Positions 1 to 61,640 of a stretch of 64,000 nucleotides of DNA are shown here, in pieces. Numbering within the stretch: position 1 is the stretch's first letter; each line of letters begins with the position of its first letter. The notes under the pieces are model-generated. The model had not been told where the DNA came from, did not search any database, and worked only from the letters and a program-made list of their open reading frames with translations. The stretch is from contig OZ014412.1 of the NCBI GenBank assembly GCA_963965975.1, positions 5,768,501-5,832,500 on the forward strand, read 5' to 3'. Source of the DNA: Xestospongia bergquistia. Taxonomy: Eukaryota > Porifera > Demospongiae > Haplosclerida > Petrosiidae. Both the position numbers and the translations under genes were made by a program.

Positions 1-2299
1 TTTTTAAACAAATATAATCATGTACTATTGAAATTGCACTCAATCAAATACTATAATCATCAAATATATTATACACTTGATATGTTATGGTCAAACATCT
101 CTAGATAGAACATATCAAATAAACAATACACGGGGAATGGATTGACCAACTGAAATAGCAGTGATATTACATTAGATAGAGAATATTAATTTCTTCAGTT
201 CCTTCCAACATATTAGTCCTATAGAGTCTTCTAACTGATCTGAGACATAATACATAACTTTCATTCTGCCACACATATGTCAATTACTTAGTATAGTGTT
301 TTGCTATGAATACATTAAATAATAAAAACAATCAAATTCATTCTGCCACAAATGCATCAGTTAGTCAACACATTTTTTGTCATGAATATTACTTAAATAA
401 TACATATCACAGAGTGTACATCAATATCTTAAATCTTCGAGTAAGAGTCTAAACAATGGGTTGAAACTACAAAGAGAATTATTGTAGAATGACATTTTAT
501 ATACATATTGATAGACATACTACTTATATACTATTGAACAAAACACATCAAGTTTGTTCATTTGTATTTAAAGTACTTAAGTTTAAAAAATAGTCAAACA
601 TTGTATTGAAGCAATGAAGATAATATAGCAACTATTTTACTGTAGGAAATAGACATGTTTACACATTATCTCAGTAAACAACTTGTGAATATACCAACAG
701 AACAGATTTGATATATGATAATAGATAACATGCATGAGACTGAGATCGATAGATTAATTGACACTTTTGATAGTCACTTGAATACATAAATTACTACATT
801 CTAACATTAAATATATAAAACCTCTATATAAATCAAAGCAAGTATCTCCATCATCACTTGTTAAAGAAATATACTGATTTAAAACATAGGCAAACATACA
901 TCATGTAAATAAGATCATTGATTAAAATATTTCTAATTGGCAAACAAGTTAGTCAATTGTAGAGAGTGGCATACAGACATTCATATTAATAGACAGATAC
1001 AAATTTTATAACTGTACAGTATACCAGCTGTATTATATGTCATTCATTATCTTGATTGGTTACACCTAAGCTACACAGCTGTCACAACTTTCCTTTCTTT
1101 GTATATCATAATGCAACAATCTTATAGGAAGTCAATTGGGGCAGTATGCTTATATAAAGTAATCTAGTTAAGTCAAAATCAATTTTTTTAAAAGTAAAAT
1201 TCTTCATATTATCATGTTTCTCTGCTATATAGTCAATTATGACACTCAATAAAGTTATCTTAGTATCTACTATAATGTTGTAAAATGCTATATATAGAAC
1301 CTCATAATAATAATGACTCTAATATATAAACTATATGTCTTGATCGAATACAGAGTTTGTAACTTTCTTATTCACAGGTGTCCTTTTACAGTATTAGTAA
1401 TATATCTTGAGGTTTGTTTACAAGGTATCCTAGTTATAGTAATCATAGTAAACCCTGAGTTGTGTTTATGAGGTGTCATATTAGCTGTTATAATGTTAAA
1501 AGTGACTTGTCAATTTAATTAATAATAGAGACTGTCCCATAGATTTCCTATATGATAATACTTTATGATAAAGACCATATGAAAGTTGTGACAGCTGCAA
1601 CCCTGCATGTACAATGACACATGTAAATATAATTATATAATGTCTATATTAAGTTGAGTATATTATCTGTACAAAATATACACTACTTCATTAGATGTAA
1701 ATATCATGCACTGTTATCAATGTTAGGTAAAAACTACCTGGAATCTATAAAATATATATGGAAGACAAAATGTACTTTTGATCATCCTTCTCCATTGGGC
1801 TAAACCATTCTACAAGGCTCCTGGTTAAGCATCATTTGAGTGTCAGATTTGAAAATTTATGTTCTGTGTCTTCAATTGTACACATGAAACAATAATTAAA
1901 AACTTATAACATAATATAATTGTTTTGAGAATTTTAAGAGGAGTTGAGTGGTTATTGGTCTGACAGGAAATTAATATAGTTTTGTTACTATATTTATCTC
2001 GTCTGATATAATTATGTGCTGTAGTATATCAGACCCTTCTTCCTTTTTTAAATACTGAGTGTCTTACTCATTAGATTATGTTGGAATAAATTCATACAAG
2101 TATATTTTCTTAAAAATAAAAATAAAATTTAATGCAAAGGAACACAAACAAGATTAATAGATGCGTAGATCAATATTGTATAGGGAGGACACAAATATTG
2201 CAGCTCACTGACGCTGGTAATCACAAACTAGTCTTAATAATATTCATAGGCGACAAACAGCGCGCCCCACAAGAGCATGAAGACAAAATCTGCAGTACA

Positions 2300-2308
2300 T
2301 ATAAAAAG
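2300..2308 (+). promoter_or_regulatory. TATA-like box upstream of the structured RNA
   Basis: TATAAAAAG in copy 1 and TATAAAAGG in the other copies. The first T lies 31 nt before the first base of the terminal stem of the RNA in the copies I measured (9489 for copy 2, 40404 for copy 5). This spacing fits a TATA-dependent, gene-external polymerase III promoter (U6/7SK type) or a polymerase II core promoter. The stretch about 45-65 nt upstream of the inferred start (CCACAAGAGCAT followed by AAGAC) is conserved and could be a proximal element, but the sponge consensus is unknown to me. Confidence 0.45.
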
Positions 2309-2330
2309 AAATGAAAACCACCTTGGATAG

Positions 2331-2690
2331 GTTGTGTTGTGGGCCAGCGTTCTGCAATGCATCAGACCTCTGAGATGGTTACCAGCATACTCTACGGAGT
2401 ATCCGAAAGGCCGACTAGGATAGGGCTGGTAGTCTCCCTTTAAACGAGAAGAGGCTGGTGTATTTGTGGTTCCCGGTTCCTGAATGCGATATTCCCTAAG
2501 AGCTGGAATCCCGTACGGCTGGTTTTAAGTTAGGGCGATGCTCCAGCCAGGATTACCTCGCGAAGACGAGGGTTACCAAGCCAGGTGGCGGTCCCAGCTA
2601 GCAATAGCAGGGAATCCTGGAGCCTAAGTGGAAGCCTGAGTGGGTGAGCGAGTAGGAATCGTTTGGGCAACACAACATGTTTTTTTTTTT
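2331..2690 (+). ncRNA. Candidate structured noncoding RNA, copy 1
   Basis: GC-rich 349-nt body (2331-2679) followed by 11 T. The first nine bases GTTGTGTTG pair perfectly with CAACACAAC at 2668-2676. Internal hairpins: ATACTC-TACG-GAGTAT (2387-2402, UACG loop); GACTA/TAGTC (2413-2417/2430-2434); GAATG/TATTC (2482-2494); CCCTAA/TTAGGG (2494-2499/2530-2535); CCTCG/CGAGG (2556-2571); CCC-A-GCTA-GCAA-TAGC-A-GGG (2593-2612, GCAA loop); and a long closing stem GCTCCAG...GATT with AATCCTGGAGC (2540-2554/2613-2623). No coding frame is shared by the copies. The T-run is where a polymerase III terminator would sit. I do not recognise RNase P, MRP, 7SK or SRP signatures. An internal TTTT at 2523-2526 is a mild argument against polymerase III. 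Confidence 0.6.
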
Positions 2691-7205: not shown

Positions 7206-10131
7206 ATTTTTTAAACAAATATAATCATGTACTATTGAAATTGCACTTGATCAAATACTATAATCATCAAATATATTATACACTTAATATGTTATGGTCA
7301 AACATCTCTAGGTAGAACATATCAAATAAACAATACACAGGAAATGGATCAACCAACTGAAATAGCGGTGATATTACATTAGATAGAGAATATTAATTTC
7401 TTCAGTTCCTTCCAACATATTAGTCCTATAGAGTCTTCTAACTGATCTGAGACATAATACATAACTTTCATTCTGCCACACATACTCTCAATATGTCAAT
7501 TTACTTAGTATAGTGTTTGCCATGAATACCTTAAATAATAAAAACAATCAAATTCATTCTGCCACAAATGCATCAGTTAGTCAACACATTTTTTGTCATG
7601 AATATTACTTAAATAATACATATCACAGAGTGTAAATCAATATCTTAAATCCTCGAGTAAGAGTCTAAACAATGGGTTGAAACTATGAAGAAAACTATTG
7701 TAGAATGACATTTTATATACATATTGATAGACATACTACTTATAGATTATTGAACATAACACGTCAAGTTTGTTCACTTGTATTTAAAGTACTTAAATGC
7801 AATGAAGATAATATAGCAACTATTTTACTGTAGGAAATAGACACATTTACACATTATCTCAGTAAACAAATTGTGAATATACCAACAGAACAGATTTGTT
7901 ATATGATAATAGATAACATGCATGAGACTGAGATCGATAGATTAATTGACACTTTTGATAGTCACTTGAATACATAAATTACTACATTCTAACATTAAAT
8001 ATATAAAACCTCTATATAAATCAAAGCAAGTATCTCCATCATCACTTGTTAAAGAAATATACTGATTTAAAACATAGGCAAACATACATCATGTAAATAA
8101 CATCATTGATTAAAATATTTCTAATTGGCAAACAAGTTAGTCAATTGTAGAGAGTGGCATACAGACATTCATATTAATAGACAGATACAAAGTTTATAAC
8201 TGTACAATATACCAGCTGTATTATATGTCAGTCATTATCTTGATTGGTTACACCTAAGCTACACAGCTGTCACAACTTTCCTTTCTTTGTATATCACAAT
8301 GCAACAATCTTATAGGAAGTCAATTGGGACAGTATGCTTATATAAAGTAATCTAGTTAATTTTTAAGAAGTAAAATTCTTCATATCATCATGTTTCTCTG
8401 CTATTATAGTCAATTATGACTCTCAATAAAGTTATCTTAGTATCTACTATAATGTTATAATATGCTATATATAGAACCTCATAATAATAATGACTCTAAT
8501 ATATATACTATATGTCTTGATTGAATACAGAGCTTGTAACTTTCTTATTCACAGGTGTCCTTTTACAGTATTAGTAATATATCTTGAGGTTTGTTTATAA
8601 GGTATCCTAGTTACAGTAATCATAGTAAACCCTGAGTTGTGTTTATGAGGTGTCATATTGGCTGTTATAATGTTAAAGTGACTTGTCAATTTAATTAATA
8701 ATAGAGACTGTCCCATAGATTTCCTATATGATAATACTTTATGATAAAGACTATATGAAAGTTGTGACAGCTGCAACCCTGCATGTACAATAACACATGT
8801 AAATATAATTATATAATGTCTGTATTAAGTTGAGTATACCATTGTATATTATCTGTACAAAATATACACTACTTCATTAGATGTAAATATTATCCACTGT
8901 TATCAACATTAGGTAAACACTAGCTGGAATCTATAAAATATATAGGGAAGACAAAATGTACTTTTTGAACATCCTTCTCTCCATTGGGCTAAACCATTCT
9001 ACAAGGCTCCTGGTTAAGCATCGTTTGAGTGTCAGATTTGAAAATTTACGTTTCGTGTCTTCAATTGTACACATGCAACAATAATTATAAACTTGTAACA
9101 TAATATAATTGTTTTGAGAATTTTAAGAGGAGTTGAGTGGTTATTGGTCTGACAGGAAATTAATACAGTTTTGTTACTATATTTATCTCGTGTGATCTAA
9201 TTATGTGCTGTAGTATATCAGACCCTTCTTCCTTTTTTAAATACTGAGTGTCTTGCTCATTAGATTATGTTGGAATAAATTCATACAAGTATATTTTCTT
9301 AAAAATAAAACTAAAATTTAATGCAAAGGAACACAAACAAGATTAATAGATGTGTAGATCAATATTGTATAGGGACAAAATTAATATTGCAGCTCACTGA
9401 CACTGGTAATCACAAACTAGCCTTAATAATATTCATAGGCGACAAACAGCACGCCCCACAAGAGCATGAAGACAAAATCTGCAGTACATATAAAAGGAAA
9501 TGAAAACCACCTTGGATAGGTTGTGTTGTGGGCCAGCGTTCTGCAATGCATCAGACCTTTGAGATGGTTACCAGCATACTCTACGGAGTATCCGAAAGGC
9601 CGACTAGGATAGGGCTGGTAGTCTCCCTTTAAACGAGAAGAGGCTGGTGTATTTGTGGTTCCCGGTTCCTGAATGCGACATTCCCTAAGAGCTGGAATCC
9701 CGTACGGCTGGTTTTAAGTTAGGGCGATGCTCCAGCCAGGATTACCTCGCGAAGACGAGGGTTACCAAGCCAGGTGGCGGTCCCAGCTAGCAATAGCAGG
9801 GAATCCTGGAGCCTAAGTGGAAGCCTGAGTGGGTGAGCGAGTAGGAATCGTTTGGGCAACACAACATGTTTTTTTTTTAATAAATCTTCACTTTATTATT
9901 TAAACTACGAGAATGTCAGCCAATCCAAAGTAAAGTTAATGTTGTTGCTAAAAGTCAAAATTAAAGGACATATTGGAAGTTCCTTCAATTTCAGTTCAAC
10001 ATAACACTAACTATAATAGATATTTGGTGACAACATCCGTGATGTCTCACTGACGACTGAAGATCTTCTCCTTGTGCTATCATCACAACATTGTCAATAT
10101 TATAGTTTTCAATGGATCCTGGATAATAAGT
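7206..10131. repeat. Intergenic repeat block R2
   Basis: Near-complete second copy of block R1, including the RNA element. Its right edge keeps the last few codons of an A-type helical exon (the sequence around GGATCCTGGATAATAAG) and then breaks off at about 10131 into unrelated sequence. A further A-type gene therefore once followed or was copied here and has been replaced by the island to the right. Confidence 0.8.
9520..9878 (+). ncRNA. Candidate structured noncoding RNA, copy 2
   Basis: Same 349-nt body (9520-9868) with T10 after it and TATAAAAG at 9489-9496. One private difference, C to T at 9559 (position 40 of the RNA), turns a proposed G-C pair into G-U in the CATCAG/CT..GATG hairpin. 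No indels relative to the other copies. Confidence 0.6.
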
Positions 10132-12425: not shown

Positions 12426-12833
12426 AATGAGAACTCTCATTTTCATGCCAGTGCTTTCGTGGAAAGAACCTCAGAACTACACAAAGAGTATCTAGACCTC
12501 ATTGAAGCTGGGGGACAAAGACATACCGTCACATATGGCATCAACAATCGCAGTCCTCTCATTGACCTTGTTGGATTTGATATTACCTCATGCTTGCCTT
12601 TCGATATTATGCACACAATTTTTGAAGGTGTTGCCACTCTTCACTTGCAGGCTCTACTCTACTATTTAGTTGACACTAAGAAATCCATCACGTTGGTAAA
12701 ACTAAATACAATATTGAGAACTCACAAGTGTCATTCTTCTGAGACTAAGCCTTCCCCTATCAGCAAAGATAATGATGGTACCTATCACATAAAGCAAACA
12801 GGTATGAACATTAAATTGTCAAGTTTTATTTAA
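12426..12833 (+). pseudogene. Transposase-related protein fragment (DIMHTIFEG motif)
   Basis: Open frame with no ATG start; an in-frame TGA at 12423-12425 precedes it. The translation contains GINNRSPLIDLVGFD, then LPFDIMHTIFEGVATLHLQAL, which matches my memory of a widespread family of uncharacterised animal proteins with an xDVMHxxLEGVxxxE motif, often considered transposon-derived. The frame ends shortly after CAAACAG/GTATGA, a possible splice donor, and the repeat block R3 starts at once, so the rest is missing. Opposed to the SAMD3-like remnant on the other strand; the two meet at about 12430, which looks like a rearrangement junction. Confidence 0.5.
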
Positions 12834-12844
12834 CTTACATAGCT

Positions 12845-14411
12845 TATATACTATATGTCTTGATTGAATACAGAGCTTGTAACTTTCTTATTCACAGGTG
12901 TCCTGTTACAGTATTAGTAATATATCTTGAGGTTTGTTTATAAGGTATCCTAGTTATAGTAATCATAGTAAACCCTGAGTTGTGTTTATGAGGTGTCATA
13001 TTGGCTGTTATAATGTTAAAAGTGACTTGTCAATTTAATTAATAATAGAGACTGTCCCATAGATTTCCTATATGATAATACTTTATGATAAAGACCATAT
13101 GAAAGTTGTGACAGCTGCAACCCTGCATGTACAATAACACATGTAAATATAATTATATAATGTCTGTATTAAGTTGAGTATATTATCTGTACAAAATATA
13201 CACTACTTATCATGCACTGTTATCAATGTTAGGTAAACACTAGCTGGAATCTATAAAATTTATAGGGAAGACAAAATGTACTTTTTGACCATCCTTCTCG
13301 ATTGGGCTAAACCATTCTACAAGGTTCCTGGTTAAGCATCATTTGAGTGTCAGATTTGAAAATTTATGTTTTGTGTCTTCAATTGTACACATGCAACAAT
13401 AATTATAAACTTGTAACATAATATAATTGTTTTGAGAATTTTAAGAGTGGTGATTGGTCTGACAGGAAATTAATACAGTTTTGTTACTATATTTATCTTG
13501 TCTGATCTAATTATGTGCTGTAGTATATCAGACCCTTCTTCCTTTTTTAAATACTGAGTGTCTTGCTCATTAGATTATGTTGGAATAAATTCATACAAGT
13601 ATATTTTCTTTAAAATAAAAATAAAATTTAATGCAAAGGAACATAAACAAGATTAATAGATGTGTAGATCAATATTGTATAGGGACAAATACTGCAGCTC
13701 ACTGACACTGGTAATCACAAACTAGTCTTAATAATATTCATAGGCGACAAACAACGTGCCCCACAAGAGCATGAAGACAAAATCTGCAGTACATATAAAA
13801 GGAAATGAAAACCACCTTGGATAGGTTGTGTTGTGGGCCAGCGTTCTGCAATGCATCAGACCTCTGAGATGGTTACCAGCATACTCTACGGAGTATCCGA
13901 AAGGCCGACTAGGATAGGGCTGGTAGTCTCCCTTTAAACGAGAAGAGGCTGGTGTATTTGTGGTTCCCGGTTCCTGAATGCGACATTCCCTAAGAGCTGG
14001 AATCCCGTACGGCTGGTTTTAAGTTAGGGCGATGCTCCAGCCAGGATTACCTCGCGAAGACGAGGGTTACCAAGCCAGGTGGCGGTCCCAGCTAGCAATA
14101 GCAGGGAATCCTGGAGCCTAAGTGGAAGCCTGAGTGGGTGAGCGAGTAGGAATCGTTTGGGCAACACAACATGTTTTTTTTTTAATAAATCTTAACTTTA
14201 GTATTTAAACTACGAGAATGTCAGCCAATCCAAAGTAAAGTTAATGTTGTTGCTAAAAGTCAAAATTAAAGGACATATTGGAAGTTCTTTTAATTTCAGT
14301 TCAACATAACACTAACTATAATAGATATTTTGTGACAACATCCGTGATGTCTCACTGACGACTGAAGATCTTCTCCTTGTGCTATCATCACAACATTGTC
14401 AATATTATAGT
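12845..14411. repeat. Intergenic repeat block R3 (partial)
   Basis: Corresponds to the right half of R2 (from about 8500) including the RNA element. At 14411 it jumps back to an internal segment of the block (equivalent to about 9248 onward) and runs to about 14487, where the kinase region begins. Confidence 0.75.
13825..14183 (+). ncRNA. Candidate structured noncoding RNA, copy 3
   Basis: 349-nt body (13825-14173) with T10. Identical to the consensus of the six copies by eye. TATA-like box upstream as in copy 1. Confidence 0.6.
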
Positions 14412-20021: not shown

Positions 20022-22546
20022 TACTTAAATAATACATATCACAAAGTGCACATCAATATCTTAAATCTTCGAGTAAGAGTCTAAACAATGGGTTGAAACT
20101 ACGAAGAGAACTATTGTAGAATGACATTTTATATACATATTGATAGACATACTACTTATATACTATTGAACATAACACGTCAAGTTTGTTCACTAATATT
20201 TAAAGTACTTAAGTTTAAAAAATAGTCAAACATTGTATTGAAGCAATGAAGATAATATAGCAACTATTTTACTGTAGGAAATAGACATGTTTACACATTA
20301 TCTCAGTAAACAACTTGTGAATATACCAACAGAACAGATTTGTTATATGATAATAGATAACATGCATGAGACTGAGATCAATAGATTAATTGACACTTTT
20401 GATAGTCACTTGAATACATAAATTACTACATTCTAACATTAAATATATAAAACCTTTATATAAATCAAGGCAAGTATCTCCATCATCACTTGTTAAAGAA
20501 ATATACTGATTTAAAACATAGGCAAACAGACATCATGTAAATAAGATCATTGATTAAAATATTTCTAATTGGCAAACAAGTTAGTCAATTGTAGAGAGTG
20601 GCATACAGACATTCATTCATATTAATAGACAGATACAAAGTTTATAACTGTACAATATACCAGCTGTATTATATGTCAGTCATTATCTTGATTGGTTACA
20701 CCTAAGCTACACAGCTGTCACAACTTTCCTTTCTTTGTATATCATAATGCAACAATCTTATAGGAAGTCAATTGGGACAGTATGCTTATATAAAGTAATC
20801 TAGTTAAGTCAAAATCAATTTTTTTTAAAAATAAAATTCTTCATATTATCATGTTTCTCTGATATATAGTCAATTATGACACTCAATAAAGTTATCTTAG
20901 TATCTACTATAATGTTATAATATGCTATACATAGAACCTCATAATAATAATGACTCTAATATATATACTATATGTCTTGATTGAATACAGAGCTTGTAAC
21001 TTTCTTATTCACAGGTGTCCTGTTACAGTATTAGTAATATATCTTGAGGTTTGTTTATAAGGTATCCTAGTTACAGTAATCATAGTAAACCCTGAGTTGT
21101 GTTTATGAGGTGTCATATTGGCTGTTATAATGTTAAAAGTGACTTGTCAATTTCATTAATAATAGAGACTGTCCCATAGATTTCCTATATGATAATACTT
21201 TATGATAAAGACTATATGAAAGTTGTGACAGCTGCAACCCTGCATGTACAATAACACATGTAAATATAATTATATAATGTCTGTATTAAGTTGAGTATAC
21301 CATTGTATATTATCTGTACAAAATATACACTACTTCATTAGATGTAAATATTATCCACTGTTATCAACGTTAGGTAAACACTAGCTGGAATCTATAAAAT
21401 ATATAGGGAAGACAAAATGTACTTTTTGAACATCCTTCTCTCCATTGGGTTAAACCATTCTACAAGGCTCCTGGTTAAGCATCGTTTGAGTGTCAGATTT
21501 GAAAATTTACGTTTCGTGTCTTAAACTTGTAACATAATATAATTGTTTTGAGAATTTTAAGAGGAGTTGAGTGGTTATTGGTCTGACAGGAAATTAATAC
21601 AGTTTTGTTACTACATTTATCTCGTCTGATCTAATTATGTGCTGTAGTATATCAGACCCTTCTTCCTTTTTTAAATACTGAGTGTCTTACTCATTAGATT
21701 ATGTTGGAATAAATTCATACAAGTATATTTTCTTAAAAATAAAACTAAAATCTAATACAAAGGAACACAAACAAGATTAATAGATGTGTAGATCAATATT
21801 GTATAGGGACAAAATTAATATTGCAGCTCACTGACGCTGGTAATCACAAACTAGCCTTAATGATATTCATAGGCGACAAACAGCGCGCCCCACAAGAGCA
21901 TGAAGACAAAATCTGCAGTACATATAAAAGGAAATGAAAACCACCTTGGATAGGTTGTGTTGTGGGCCAGCGTTCTGCAATGCATCAGACCTCTGAGATG
22001 GTTACCAGCATACTCTACGGAGTATCCGAAAGGCCGACTAGGATAGGGCTGGTAGTCTCCCTTTAAACGAGAAGAGGCTGGTGTATTTGTGGTTCCCGGT
22101 TCCTGAATGCGACATTCCCTAAGAGCTGGAATCCCGTACGGCTGGTTTTAAGTTAGGGCGATGCTCCAGCCAGGATTACCTCGCGAAGACGAGGGTTACC
22201 AAGCCAGGTGGCGGTCCCAGCTAGCAATAGCAGGGAATCCTGGAGCCTAAGTGGAAGCCTGAGTGGGTGAGCGAGTAGGAATCGTTTGGGCAACACAACA
22301 TGTTTTTTTTTTAATAAATAAATCTTAACTTTATTATTTAAACTACGAGAATGTCAGCCAATCCAAAGTAAAGTTAATGTTGTTGCTAAAAGTCAAAATT
22401 AAACGACATATTGGAAGTTCCTTTAATTTCAGTTCAACATAACACTAACTATAATAGATATTTGGTGACAACATCCGTGATGTCTCACTGACGACTGAAG
22501 ATCTTCTCCTTGTGCTATCATCACAACATTGTCAATATTATAGTTT
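20022..22546. repeat. Intergenic repeat block R4
   Basis: Begins at the position equivalent to about 400 in R1 and continues to the 3' end of A2. Contains RNA copy 4. Confidence 0.8.
21954..22312 (+). ncRNA. Candidate structured noncoding RNA, copy 4
   Basis: 349-nt body (21954-22302) with T10, identical to consensus by eye. It lies about 240 bp beyond the 3' end of A2 on the opposite strand, the same arrangement as RNA copy 1 and A1. Confidence 0.6.
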
Positions 22547-40228: not shown

Positions 40229-41510
40229 TAAAAAAATTTAATGCAAAGGAACACAAACAAGATTAATAGATGCGTAGATCAATATTGTATTGGGACAAAT
40301 ATTGCAGCTCACTGACGCTGGTAATCACAAACTAGCCTTAATGATATTCATAGGCGACAAACAGCGCGCCCCACAAGAGCATAAAGACCAAATCTGCAGT
40401 ACATATAAAAGGAAATGAAAACCACCTTGGATAGGTTGTGTTGTGGGCCAGCGTTCTGCAATGCATCAGACCTCTGAGATGGTTACCAGCATACTCTACG
40501 GAGTATCCGAAAGGCCGACTAGGATAGGGCTGGTAGTCTCCCTTTAAACGAGAAGAGGCTGGTGTATTTGTAGTTCCCGGTTCCTGAATGCGACATTCCC
40601 TAAGAGCTGGAATCCCGTACGGCTGGTTTTAAGTTAGGGCGATGCTCCAGCCAGGATTACCTCGCGAAGACGAGGGTTACCAAGCCAGGTGGCGGTCCCA
40701 GCTAGCAATAGCAGGGAATCCTGGAGCCTAAGTGGAAGCCTGAGTGGGTGAGCGAGTAGGAATCGTTTGGGCAACACAACATGTTTTTTTTAATAAATCT
40801 TAACTTTATTATTTAAACTACGAGAATGTCAGCCAATCCAAAGTAAAGTTAATGTTGTTGCTAAAAGTCAAAATTAAAGGACATATTGGAAGTTCTTTTA
40901 ATTTCAGTTCAACATAACACTAACTATAATAGATATTTGGTGTAAATATAATTATATAATGTCTGTATTAAGTTGAGTATATTATCTGTACAAAATATAC
41001 ACTACTTCATTAGATGTAAATATCATGCACTGTTATCAATGTTAGGTAAACAGTAGCTGGAATCTATAAAATTTATAGGGAAGACAAAATGTACTTTTTG
41101 ACCATCCTTCTCTCCATTGGGCTAAACCATTCTACAAGGTTCCTGGTTAAGCATCGTTTGAGTGTCAGATTTGAAAATTTATGTTTTGTGTCTTCAATTG
41201 TACACATGGAACAATAATTATAAACTTGTAACATAATATAATTGTTTTGAGAATTTTAAGAGGAGTTGAGTGGTTATTGGTCTGACAGGAAATTAATACA
41301 GTTTTGTTACTATATTTATTTCGTCTGATCTAATTATGTGCTGTAGTATATCAGACCCTTCTTCCTTTTTTAAATACTGAGTGTCTTGCTCATTAGATTA
41401 TGTTGGAATAAAATTCACACAAGTATATTTTCTTAAAAATAAAACTAAAATTTAATACAAAGGAACAAAAAAAAGATTAATAGATGTGTAGATCAATATT
41501 GTATAGGGAG
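40229..41510. repeat. Permuted fragment of block R (R5)
   Basis: First comes the part with the RNA element (equivalent to R1 2130-2850), ending at GATATTTGGTG near 40942. Then a piece that in R1 lies before it (equivalent to about 1625-2160). The order is thus swapped relative to R1/R2. R6 has the same order. Confidence 0.75.
40435..40791 (+). ncRNA. Candidate structured noncoding RNA, copy 5
   Basis: 349-nt body (40435-40783) with T8. Differs from consensus at one site (G to A at RNA position 138, shared with copy 6). TATAAAAGG box starts 31 nt upstream (40404). It lies about 500 bp upstream of the G1 start codon, on the opposite strand. Confidence 0.6.
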
Positions 41511-60363: not shown

Positions 60364-61640
60364 TAAAAAAATTTAATGCAAAGGAACACAAACAAGATTA
60401 ATAGATGTGTAGATCAATATTGTATTGGGACAAATATTGCAGCTCACTGACTCAAACTAGCCTTAATGATATTCATAGGCGACAAACAGCGCGCCCCACA
60501 AGAGCATAAAGACAAAATCTGCAGTACATATAAAAGGAAATGAAAACCACCTTGGATAGGTTGTGTTGTGGGCCAGCGTTCTGCAATGCATCAGACCTCT
60601 GAGATGGTTACCAGCATACTCTACGGAGTATCCGAAAGGCCGACTAGGATAGGGCTGGTAGTCTCCCTTTAAACGAGAAGAGGCTGGTGTATTTGTAGTT
60701 CCCGGTTCCTGAATGCGACATTCCCTAAGAGCTGGAATCCCGTACGGCTGGTTTTAAGTTAGGGCGATGCTCCAGCCAGGATTACCTCGCGAAGACGAGG
60801 GTTACCAAGCCAGGTGGCGGTCCCAGCTAGCAATAGCAGGGAATCCTGGAGCCTAAGTGGAAGCCTGAGTGGGTGAGCGAGTAGGAATCGTTTGGGCAAC
60901 ACAACATGTTTTTTTTTTTTTCAATAAATCTTAACCTTATTTTTTAAACTACGAGAATGTCAGCCAATCCAAAGTAAAGTTAATGTTGTTGCTAAAAGTC
61001 AAAATTAAAGGACATATTGGAAGTTCTTTTAATTTCAGTTCAACATAACACTAACTATAATAGATATTTGGTGTAAATATGATTATATAATGTCTGTATT
61101 AAGTTGAGTATATTATCTGTACAAAATATACACTACTTCATTAGATGTAAATATCATGCACTGTTATCAATGTTAGGTAAACAGTAGCTGGAATCTATAA
61201 AATTTATAGGGAAGACAAAATGTACTTTTTGACCATCCTTCTCTCCATTGGGCTAAACCATTCTACAAGGTTCCTGGTTAAGCATCGTTTGAGTGTCAGA
61301 TTTGAAAATTTATGTTTTGTGTCTTCAATTGTACAAATGGAACAATAATTATAAACTTGTAACATAATATAATTGTTTTGAGAATTTTAAGAGGAGTTGA
61401 GTGGTTATTGGTCTGACAGGAAATTAATACAGTTTTGTTACTATATTTATTTCGTCTGATCTAATTATGTGCTGTAGTATATCAGACCCTTCTTCCTTTT
61501 TTAAATACTGAGTGTCTTGCTCATTAGATTATGTTGGAATAAAATTCACACAAGTATATTTTCTTAAAAATAAAACTAAAATTTAATACAAAGGAACAAA
61601 AAAAAGATTAATAGATGTGTAGATCAATATTGTATAGGGA
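60364..61640. repeat. Permuted fragment of block R (R6)
   Basis: Same permuted order as R5, with RNA copy 6 in the first part; the second part starts at about 61074. Confidence 0.75.
60560..60921 (+). ncRNA. Candidate structured noncoding RNA, copy 6
   Basis: 349-nt body (60560-60908) with T13. Shares the position 138 change with copy 5. The sequence about 110 bp upstream has lost a short stretch relative to copy 5, whereas the RNA body has no indel. Confidence 0.6.

Follow-up and report, generated by a model that had tools for sequence, protein, structure and literature searches.

A probable new family of RNA polymerase III type-3 RNA genes, homogenised and in high copy number, in the genome of the sponge Xestospongia bergquistia

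Results

Six copies of a candidate RNA gene in the window

The window, i.e., the whole stretch of 64,000 nt analyzed here (C2:5768501-5832500 of a 146-Mb genome in 21 contigs), carried six copies of one short gene-like unit (Table 1). Sequence comparison found the six bodies beginning exactly where an earlier sequence-only reading of this DNA had placed them. All were 349 nt long and had 0-2 mismatches and no gaps relative to the copy at 2331; TATAAAA started 31 nt before the body in six of six, and copies 1-6 ended in terminators of 11, 10, 10, 10, 8 and 13 T, as that reading had claimed. The 9-bp pairing of the body ends and the perfect hairpins with UACG and GCAA loops that it had described were present in copy 1. 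As judged from the sequence, an intact copy comprises a complete Pol III type-3 gene with distal element, PSE, TATA box, body and T-run. A motif at 2462-2469 of copy 1, AUUUGUGG, presumably resembles U1.

The sequence-only reading had set the indel-free bodies against flanks differing by many indels. Within the window, the flanks were also alike, as the copies lie in segmental duplications, so that the window alone is no proof of constraint; the contrast was convincing only genome-wide. Pfam searches of the neighbouring frames identified one Death domain and one AIG1 GTPase, and the other eight of ten frames had no match. A 135-aa open frame at 12426-12830 (plus strand) looked transposon-like by eye and had no Pfam match. 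A stop-to-stop frame of 96 codons (2237-2524, minus strand) ran antisense to the promoter and body of copy 1 and recurred in many other copies; it was discounted as a probable by-product of sequence conservation.

Table 1. Positions of the six copies in the window and of the parts of copy 1.
Feature	Position	Strand	Remark
Copy 1, distal element, DSE-like, TTAATAATATTCATA	2234-2248	+	Conserved in part among flank-distinct copies; U6 in L040/L041 preceded by a similar motif
Copy 1, PSE-like element	2265-2290	+	Core common to U6, RNase P and Y-like promoters
Copy 1, TATA box	2300-2306	+	31 nt before body; identity 1.0 between eight flank-distinct copies
Copy 1, RNA body, 349 nt	2331-2679	+	
Copy 1, terminal stem, 5' arm	2331-2339	+	
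Copy 1, UACG-loop hairpin (other copies: UUCG)	2387-2402	+	
Copy 1, stretch with internal TTTT, at which Pol III might terminate early	2521-2529	+	
Copy 1, 3' domain closed by CCAGGAUU/AAUCCUGG, hairpins within	2547-2620	+	
Copy 1, hairpin CCUCG-CGAAGA-CGAGG (other copies: CCUCGUC-UUCG-GACGAGG)	2556-2571	+	
Copy 1, hairpin with GCAA loop	2597-2608	+	
Copy 1, terminal stem, 3' arm	2668-2676	+	
Copy 1, T-run terminator, 11 T	2680-2690	+	
Copy 2	9423-9878	+	DSE 9423-9437, PSE 9454-9479, TATA 9489-9495, body 9520-9868, T-run 9869-9878
Copy 3	13728-14183	+	DSE 13728-13742, PSE 13759-13784, TATA 13794-13800, body 13825-14173, T-run 14174-14183
Copy 4	21857-22312	+	DSE 21857-21871, PSE 21888-21913, TATA 21923-21929, body 21954-22302, T-run 22303-22312
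Copy 5	40338-40791	+	DSE 40338-40352, PSE 40369-40394, TATA 40404-40410, body 40435-40783, T-run 40784-40791
Copy 6	60463-60921	+	DSE 60463-60477, PSE 60494-60519, TATA 60529-60535, body 60560-60908, T-run 60909-60921

Copy number, dispersal and length across the genome

A 27-nt core of the window type, allowing up to 3 mismatches, was found at 269 places in the genome, and the core of a second subfamily was found at 57; the reversed control gave 0 in both searches. Both counts include fragments, and a comparison of the two patterns showed that no place can fit both. Instead of the six copies first counted, the family thus occupies at least 326 places, which are spread over at least 13 of the 21 contigs. 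Nor was the spread with the gene cluster that the sequence-only reading considered supported: the places were dispersed among mixed neighbours, most of them named by eye. At the first 30 places listed for the window-type core, a near-full-length body was present in every case (30/30).

The loci examined yielded 131 matches. Once identical stretches had been taken out, 110 remained, and 75 of these were full-length by set criteria. The body measured 349 nt in 43 of the 75, 351 nt in 15 and another length (307-375 nt) in 17. The exact length of 349 nt, although true of the six window copies, was therefore not a rule, and random indels in copies elsewhere, which had been named as a finding that would refute the RNA gene, were borne out in part by these 17, some of which had intact promoters; strong divergence, however, went mainly with loss of the promoter (see below). 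In the alignment, the 2 nt by which bodies of 349 and 351 nt differ lay in the CGAAGA/UUCG hairpin. A T-run of at least 6 T followed the body in 74 of the 75 copies.

Genome searches for other Pol III RNA genes located at least two U6, at least one SRP RNA and at least one MRP gene, and at least five RNase P matches of which four were above the cut-off; these counts are lower bounds because only the best candidates were scored. RNase P RNA was present in several copies (L042-L046, C5:7.89-8.28 Mb), with TTTT as the apparent terminator in L042-L045.

The promoter matches that of U6-class Pol III genes

A profile of the promoter region (-108 to -1) was derived from 14 copies and tested against 11 loci: SRP, two U6, five RNase P, MRP, a Y-like gene and one further promoter-pattern match. 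It matched both U6 promoters found, at the right place and in the right orientation (E 3.3e-7 and 2.3e-6), bearing out the proposed layout of a TATA-dependent (type-3) Pol III gene. The match at the Y-like locus had an E of 3.6e-5; because a pattern derived from the family promoter had led to this locus, independent support comes solely from the Y-like RNA that follows the promoter. At RNase P the match was weak (best E 0.62) but in the right place, and the values at MRP (E 9.6) and SRP (E 0.12, inside the RNA) were not meaningful. A profile of the body had no match on the same 11 loci (best E 10) and scored an E of 4e-47 or better at three family loci, one of which (L105) was in the profile.

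The external promoter (PSE-TATA) was kept in 69 of the 75 full-length copies. The distance from CCCACAA to TATAAA was 27 nt in 65 of these 69, with an expression that allowed 24-29 nt. The same spacing was observed at one of the two U6 genes, at four RNase P loci and at the Y-like gene. Genome-wide, CCCACAA-27-TATAAA had 127 matches vs. 78 for the reversed control, indicating that many pattern matches arise by chance. The Y-RNA-like gene (L109, 411-483, minus strand; G000:C2 near 10600750) combined the PSE-27-TATA promoter with a T-run and reached 25.3 bits with RF00019 (E 0.078; gathering score 38).

By analogy with U6, it follows that the transcript would start near the body start, maybe a few bases off. 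An internal TTTT occurred in 65 of the 69 promoter-intact copies; as TTTT also seems to terminate RNase P in this genome, shorter products are possible.

The body is better kept than its flanks

Eight flank-distinct copies, with <65% likeness over -200 to -106 (two of them share a downstream flank), were drawn from 65 full-length copies with at least 95% identity and a length of 340-354 nt. Their mean pairwise identity was 0.31 in the far upstream flank, 0.73 over the distal element (0.81 and 0.78 in its two 10-nt windows) and 0.62 over the spacer at -90 to -71, with 0.47 over -80 to -71. It was 0.89 in the PSE, 0.75 in the gap between PSE and TATA, and 0.73 from TATA to the start. The body reached 0.97-0.99 and the T-run 0.91, and the downstream sequence had 0.53 and then 0.45.

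Pairs of copies were compared within a set of 37 loci, selected out of 51 long loci. The upstream flank was alignable in 77 pairs, which are not independent of each other; the 66 with a flank divergence of at least 5% were used and 11 were left out. Median divergence in the 66 pairs was 13.1% in the flank, 8.25% in the promoter and 0.7% in the body, with 1.4, 0 and 0 gaps per 100 nt, respectively. In some pairs the promoter had diverged as much as the flank or more when the body was identical, showing that the RNA is the best-kept unit. Divergence above 5% was found in all six full-length copies without PSE-TATA vs. 3 of the 69 with it; given the relatedness of the copies and a selection made in part for divergence, the p-value of 4e-7 is only indicative.

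Five markers, including the end type, were scored in 66 copies, and all ten marker pairs occurred in at least four combinations, showing that the copies exchange sequence. Taken together, the sequences reveal hundreds of dispersed core places whose bodies exchange sequence and stay near-identical as the flanks decay. The paired ends changed together in all 73 classifiable copies (2 of 75 were unclassifiable), with the end types matched in 47/47 GT-type and 26/26 AG-type copies; two AG-type copies carried one additional change in the 3' arm, where a G-U pair results. Either selection for pairing or conversion tracts that leave the ends untouched would explain this concordance. Common descent accounts for part of the concordance, since the end type goes with the subfamily flanks.

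Predicted RNA structure

The sequence-only reading had called the RNA strongly structured. The end stem and hairpins were indeed there, but the description was overstated energetically: the minimum free energy had a z of -1.64, and 5 of 100 shuffles were as good. For the two subfamilies, 12 and 6 of 200 shuffles were as good, and energy z-scores overall ranged from -1.6 to -2.0. The opposite strand folded no better than shuffles (z -0.46, 29/100).

A consensus fold was derived from an alignment of 22 diverse copies. It contained the terminal stem, an adjoining second helix, a UNCG hairpin and the domain closed by CCAGGAUU/AAUCCUGG. Of its 73 pairs, 29 were invariant, 22 varied on one side and 21 departed only by unpaired cells; a two-sided compensatory change occurred in one pair, in the terminal stem. 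There was no excess over shuffles in pairs with double changes (1 vs. 1.3) or in further pair types (24 vs. 24.6). The covariation score was 0.050 vs. 0.044 +/- 0.002 in shuffles and the share of paired cells was 97.5 vs. 96.8%, an excess that relatedness can cause. With partners slid, only 33.5-44.9% of cells paired; such a difference is expected because the structure was derived from the same sequences. Loop swaps kept stable forms (UACG to UUCG, and CGAAGA to UUCG on one stem), which is a better hint of constraint at the RNA level.

Searches against known RNA families

The claim that no signature of a known RNA is visible held: no threshold match was obtained with Rfam, either at gathering cut-offs for the window or at E <=10 for copy 1. 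Qrr (15.3 bits, E 3.6) and SNORA38 (11.8 bits, E 8.1), both obtained with copy 1 at E <=10, were taken as chance. The RNase P, MRP, SRP and U6 models had no match in the window, the genome's own members being located elsewhere. No tRNA was detected when the window was scanned with a tool for the bacterial code. Exact patterns found no relatives in bacterial and archaeal genomes and viral contigs, which says little as these collections are non-animal. No description of this RNA family was found among the titles and abstract openings consulted.

Discussion

The sequence-only reading had suggested a new RNA family that spread with the gene cluster. A new family is still the best reading once the confinement to the cluster is dropped: with a probability of roughly 70%, these are copies of a homogenised, high-copy Pol III type-3 RNA gene. 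Type-3 genes of Pol III are few and have core functions (U6, RNase P, MRP, 7SK and Y). The SNAPc/TBP/Brf2-type Pol III machinery makes U6 and would also transcribe the family copies, and the RNA would end in oligo-U. It would fold into a closed shape that the terminal helix holds together, with capped hairpins and a compact 3' domain. The product might further be stable and abundant and serve as the scaffold of a ribonucleoprotein, for which the high copy number might supply dosage, and gene conversion together with purifying selection might maintain the uniformity of the copies.

We put at slightly under even odds the wider proposal that an early-branching animal has an abundant ribonucleoprotein RNA absent from Rfam and encoded by hundreds of dispersed genes, with a U6-class promoter and a terminator for each intact gene and an RNA homogenised across chromosomes. 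If true, the genes for this RNA would greatly outnumber the U6, SRP, RNase P, MRP and Y-like genes found here, all taken together. Hundreds of genes with external promoters and a body about 99% identical despite flank decay would indicate a major undescribed RNA, and they would also clearly exemplify how dispersed genes are homogenised within limits that coincide with the gene's own elements. The PSE-27-TATA code could also serve in finding other Pol III genes in this genome, as the Y-RNA-like gene among its matches illustrates.

The main rival, which we regard as unlikely, is a selfish or passive DNA-level repeat that merely contains a Pol III promoter and an RNA sequence and has no useful RNA product, multiplied with duplicating segments and kept uniform through gene conversion. 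The very high copy number, the exchange among copies, the fragments and the flanks related over hundreds of bases in many copies all fit such a repeat, and conversion alone could account for the conservation. Tandem arrays near contig ends (L110, C3:27700-29700; L112, C6:19200-20100), whose units combine the family promoter with no more than the initial ~150 nt of the RNA, fit it as well. However, the distal element was kept beside a spacer that had diverged, a pattern not expected from a single continuous conversion tract; copies without a promoter were diverged; and no signal of target-site duplication was found.

A very diverged 7SK RNA of the host animal is far less probable. 7SK is about 330 nt long and belongs to the type-3 class, so that the size, the promoter and the T-run of the family fit, and the genome holds a HEXIM gene (L108, C15:1731966-1732466, 114 bits) and gave no 7SK match. 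That genome search for 7SK was silent for its control too, so absence from the genome does not follow. Against 7SK, RF00100 was unmatched in the window and, for copy 1, at E <=10, and the family has hundreds of copies. As predicted, the fold would place the closing stem of the whole RNA directly before the T-run or U tail, where 7SK has a separate 3' hairpin, the LARP7-binding SL4. GATC was absent from type A and type B bodies (count 0), and several diverged copies had one each, near the 3' end in the alignment. According to PMC10083321, a GAUC motif in the 5' hairpin (SL1) is characteristic of 7SK. A pattern combining the promoter with GATC had two matches vs. one for the control; one was a partial family copy and none was convincing.

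A SINE-type retroposon, spread by reverse transcription of a Pol III RNA, is the least probable explanation: the family resembles SINEs as hundreds of dispersed Pol III units with T-runs, and many 3' fragments extend to the T-run (the search patterns favoured the 3' half), but it keeps an external promoter, which would be lost in passage through RNA, has a B box (<=1 mismatch) in 0 of the 6 window bodies and no A box at the one locus tested, lacks target-site duplications (flanking direct repeats averaged 5.6 nt vs. 5.8 nt with permuted partners, n = 75), and leaves fragments that run past the terminator into shared downstream DNA.

Among the closest known systems are Pol III genes of the same genome. 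The RNase P genes (L042-L044) share CCCACAA-27-TATAAA, a T-run, a length of about 300 nt and ends that look paired by eye; they differ in their dissimilar bodies, with no RF00009 match in the window, and in number (five matches found). The U6 genes (L040 and L041) share the distal element, PSE, TATA box and T-run, although L041 has CCCCGTAA instead of CCCACAA and was missed by the spacing pattern. Their body is unrelated, and at least two U6 genes stand against more than 300 places of the family described here.
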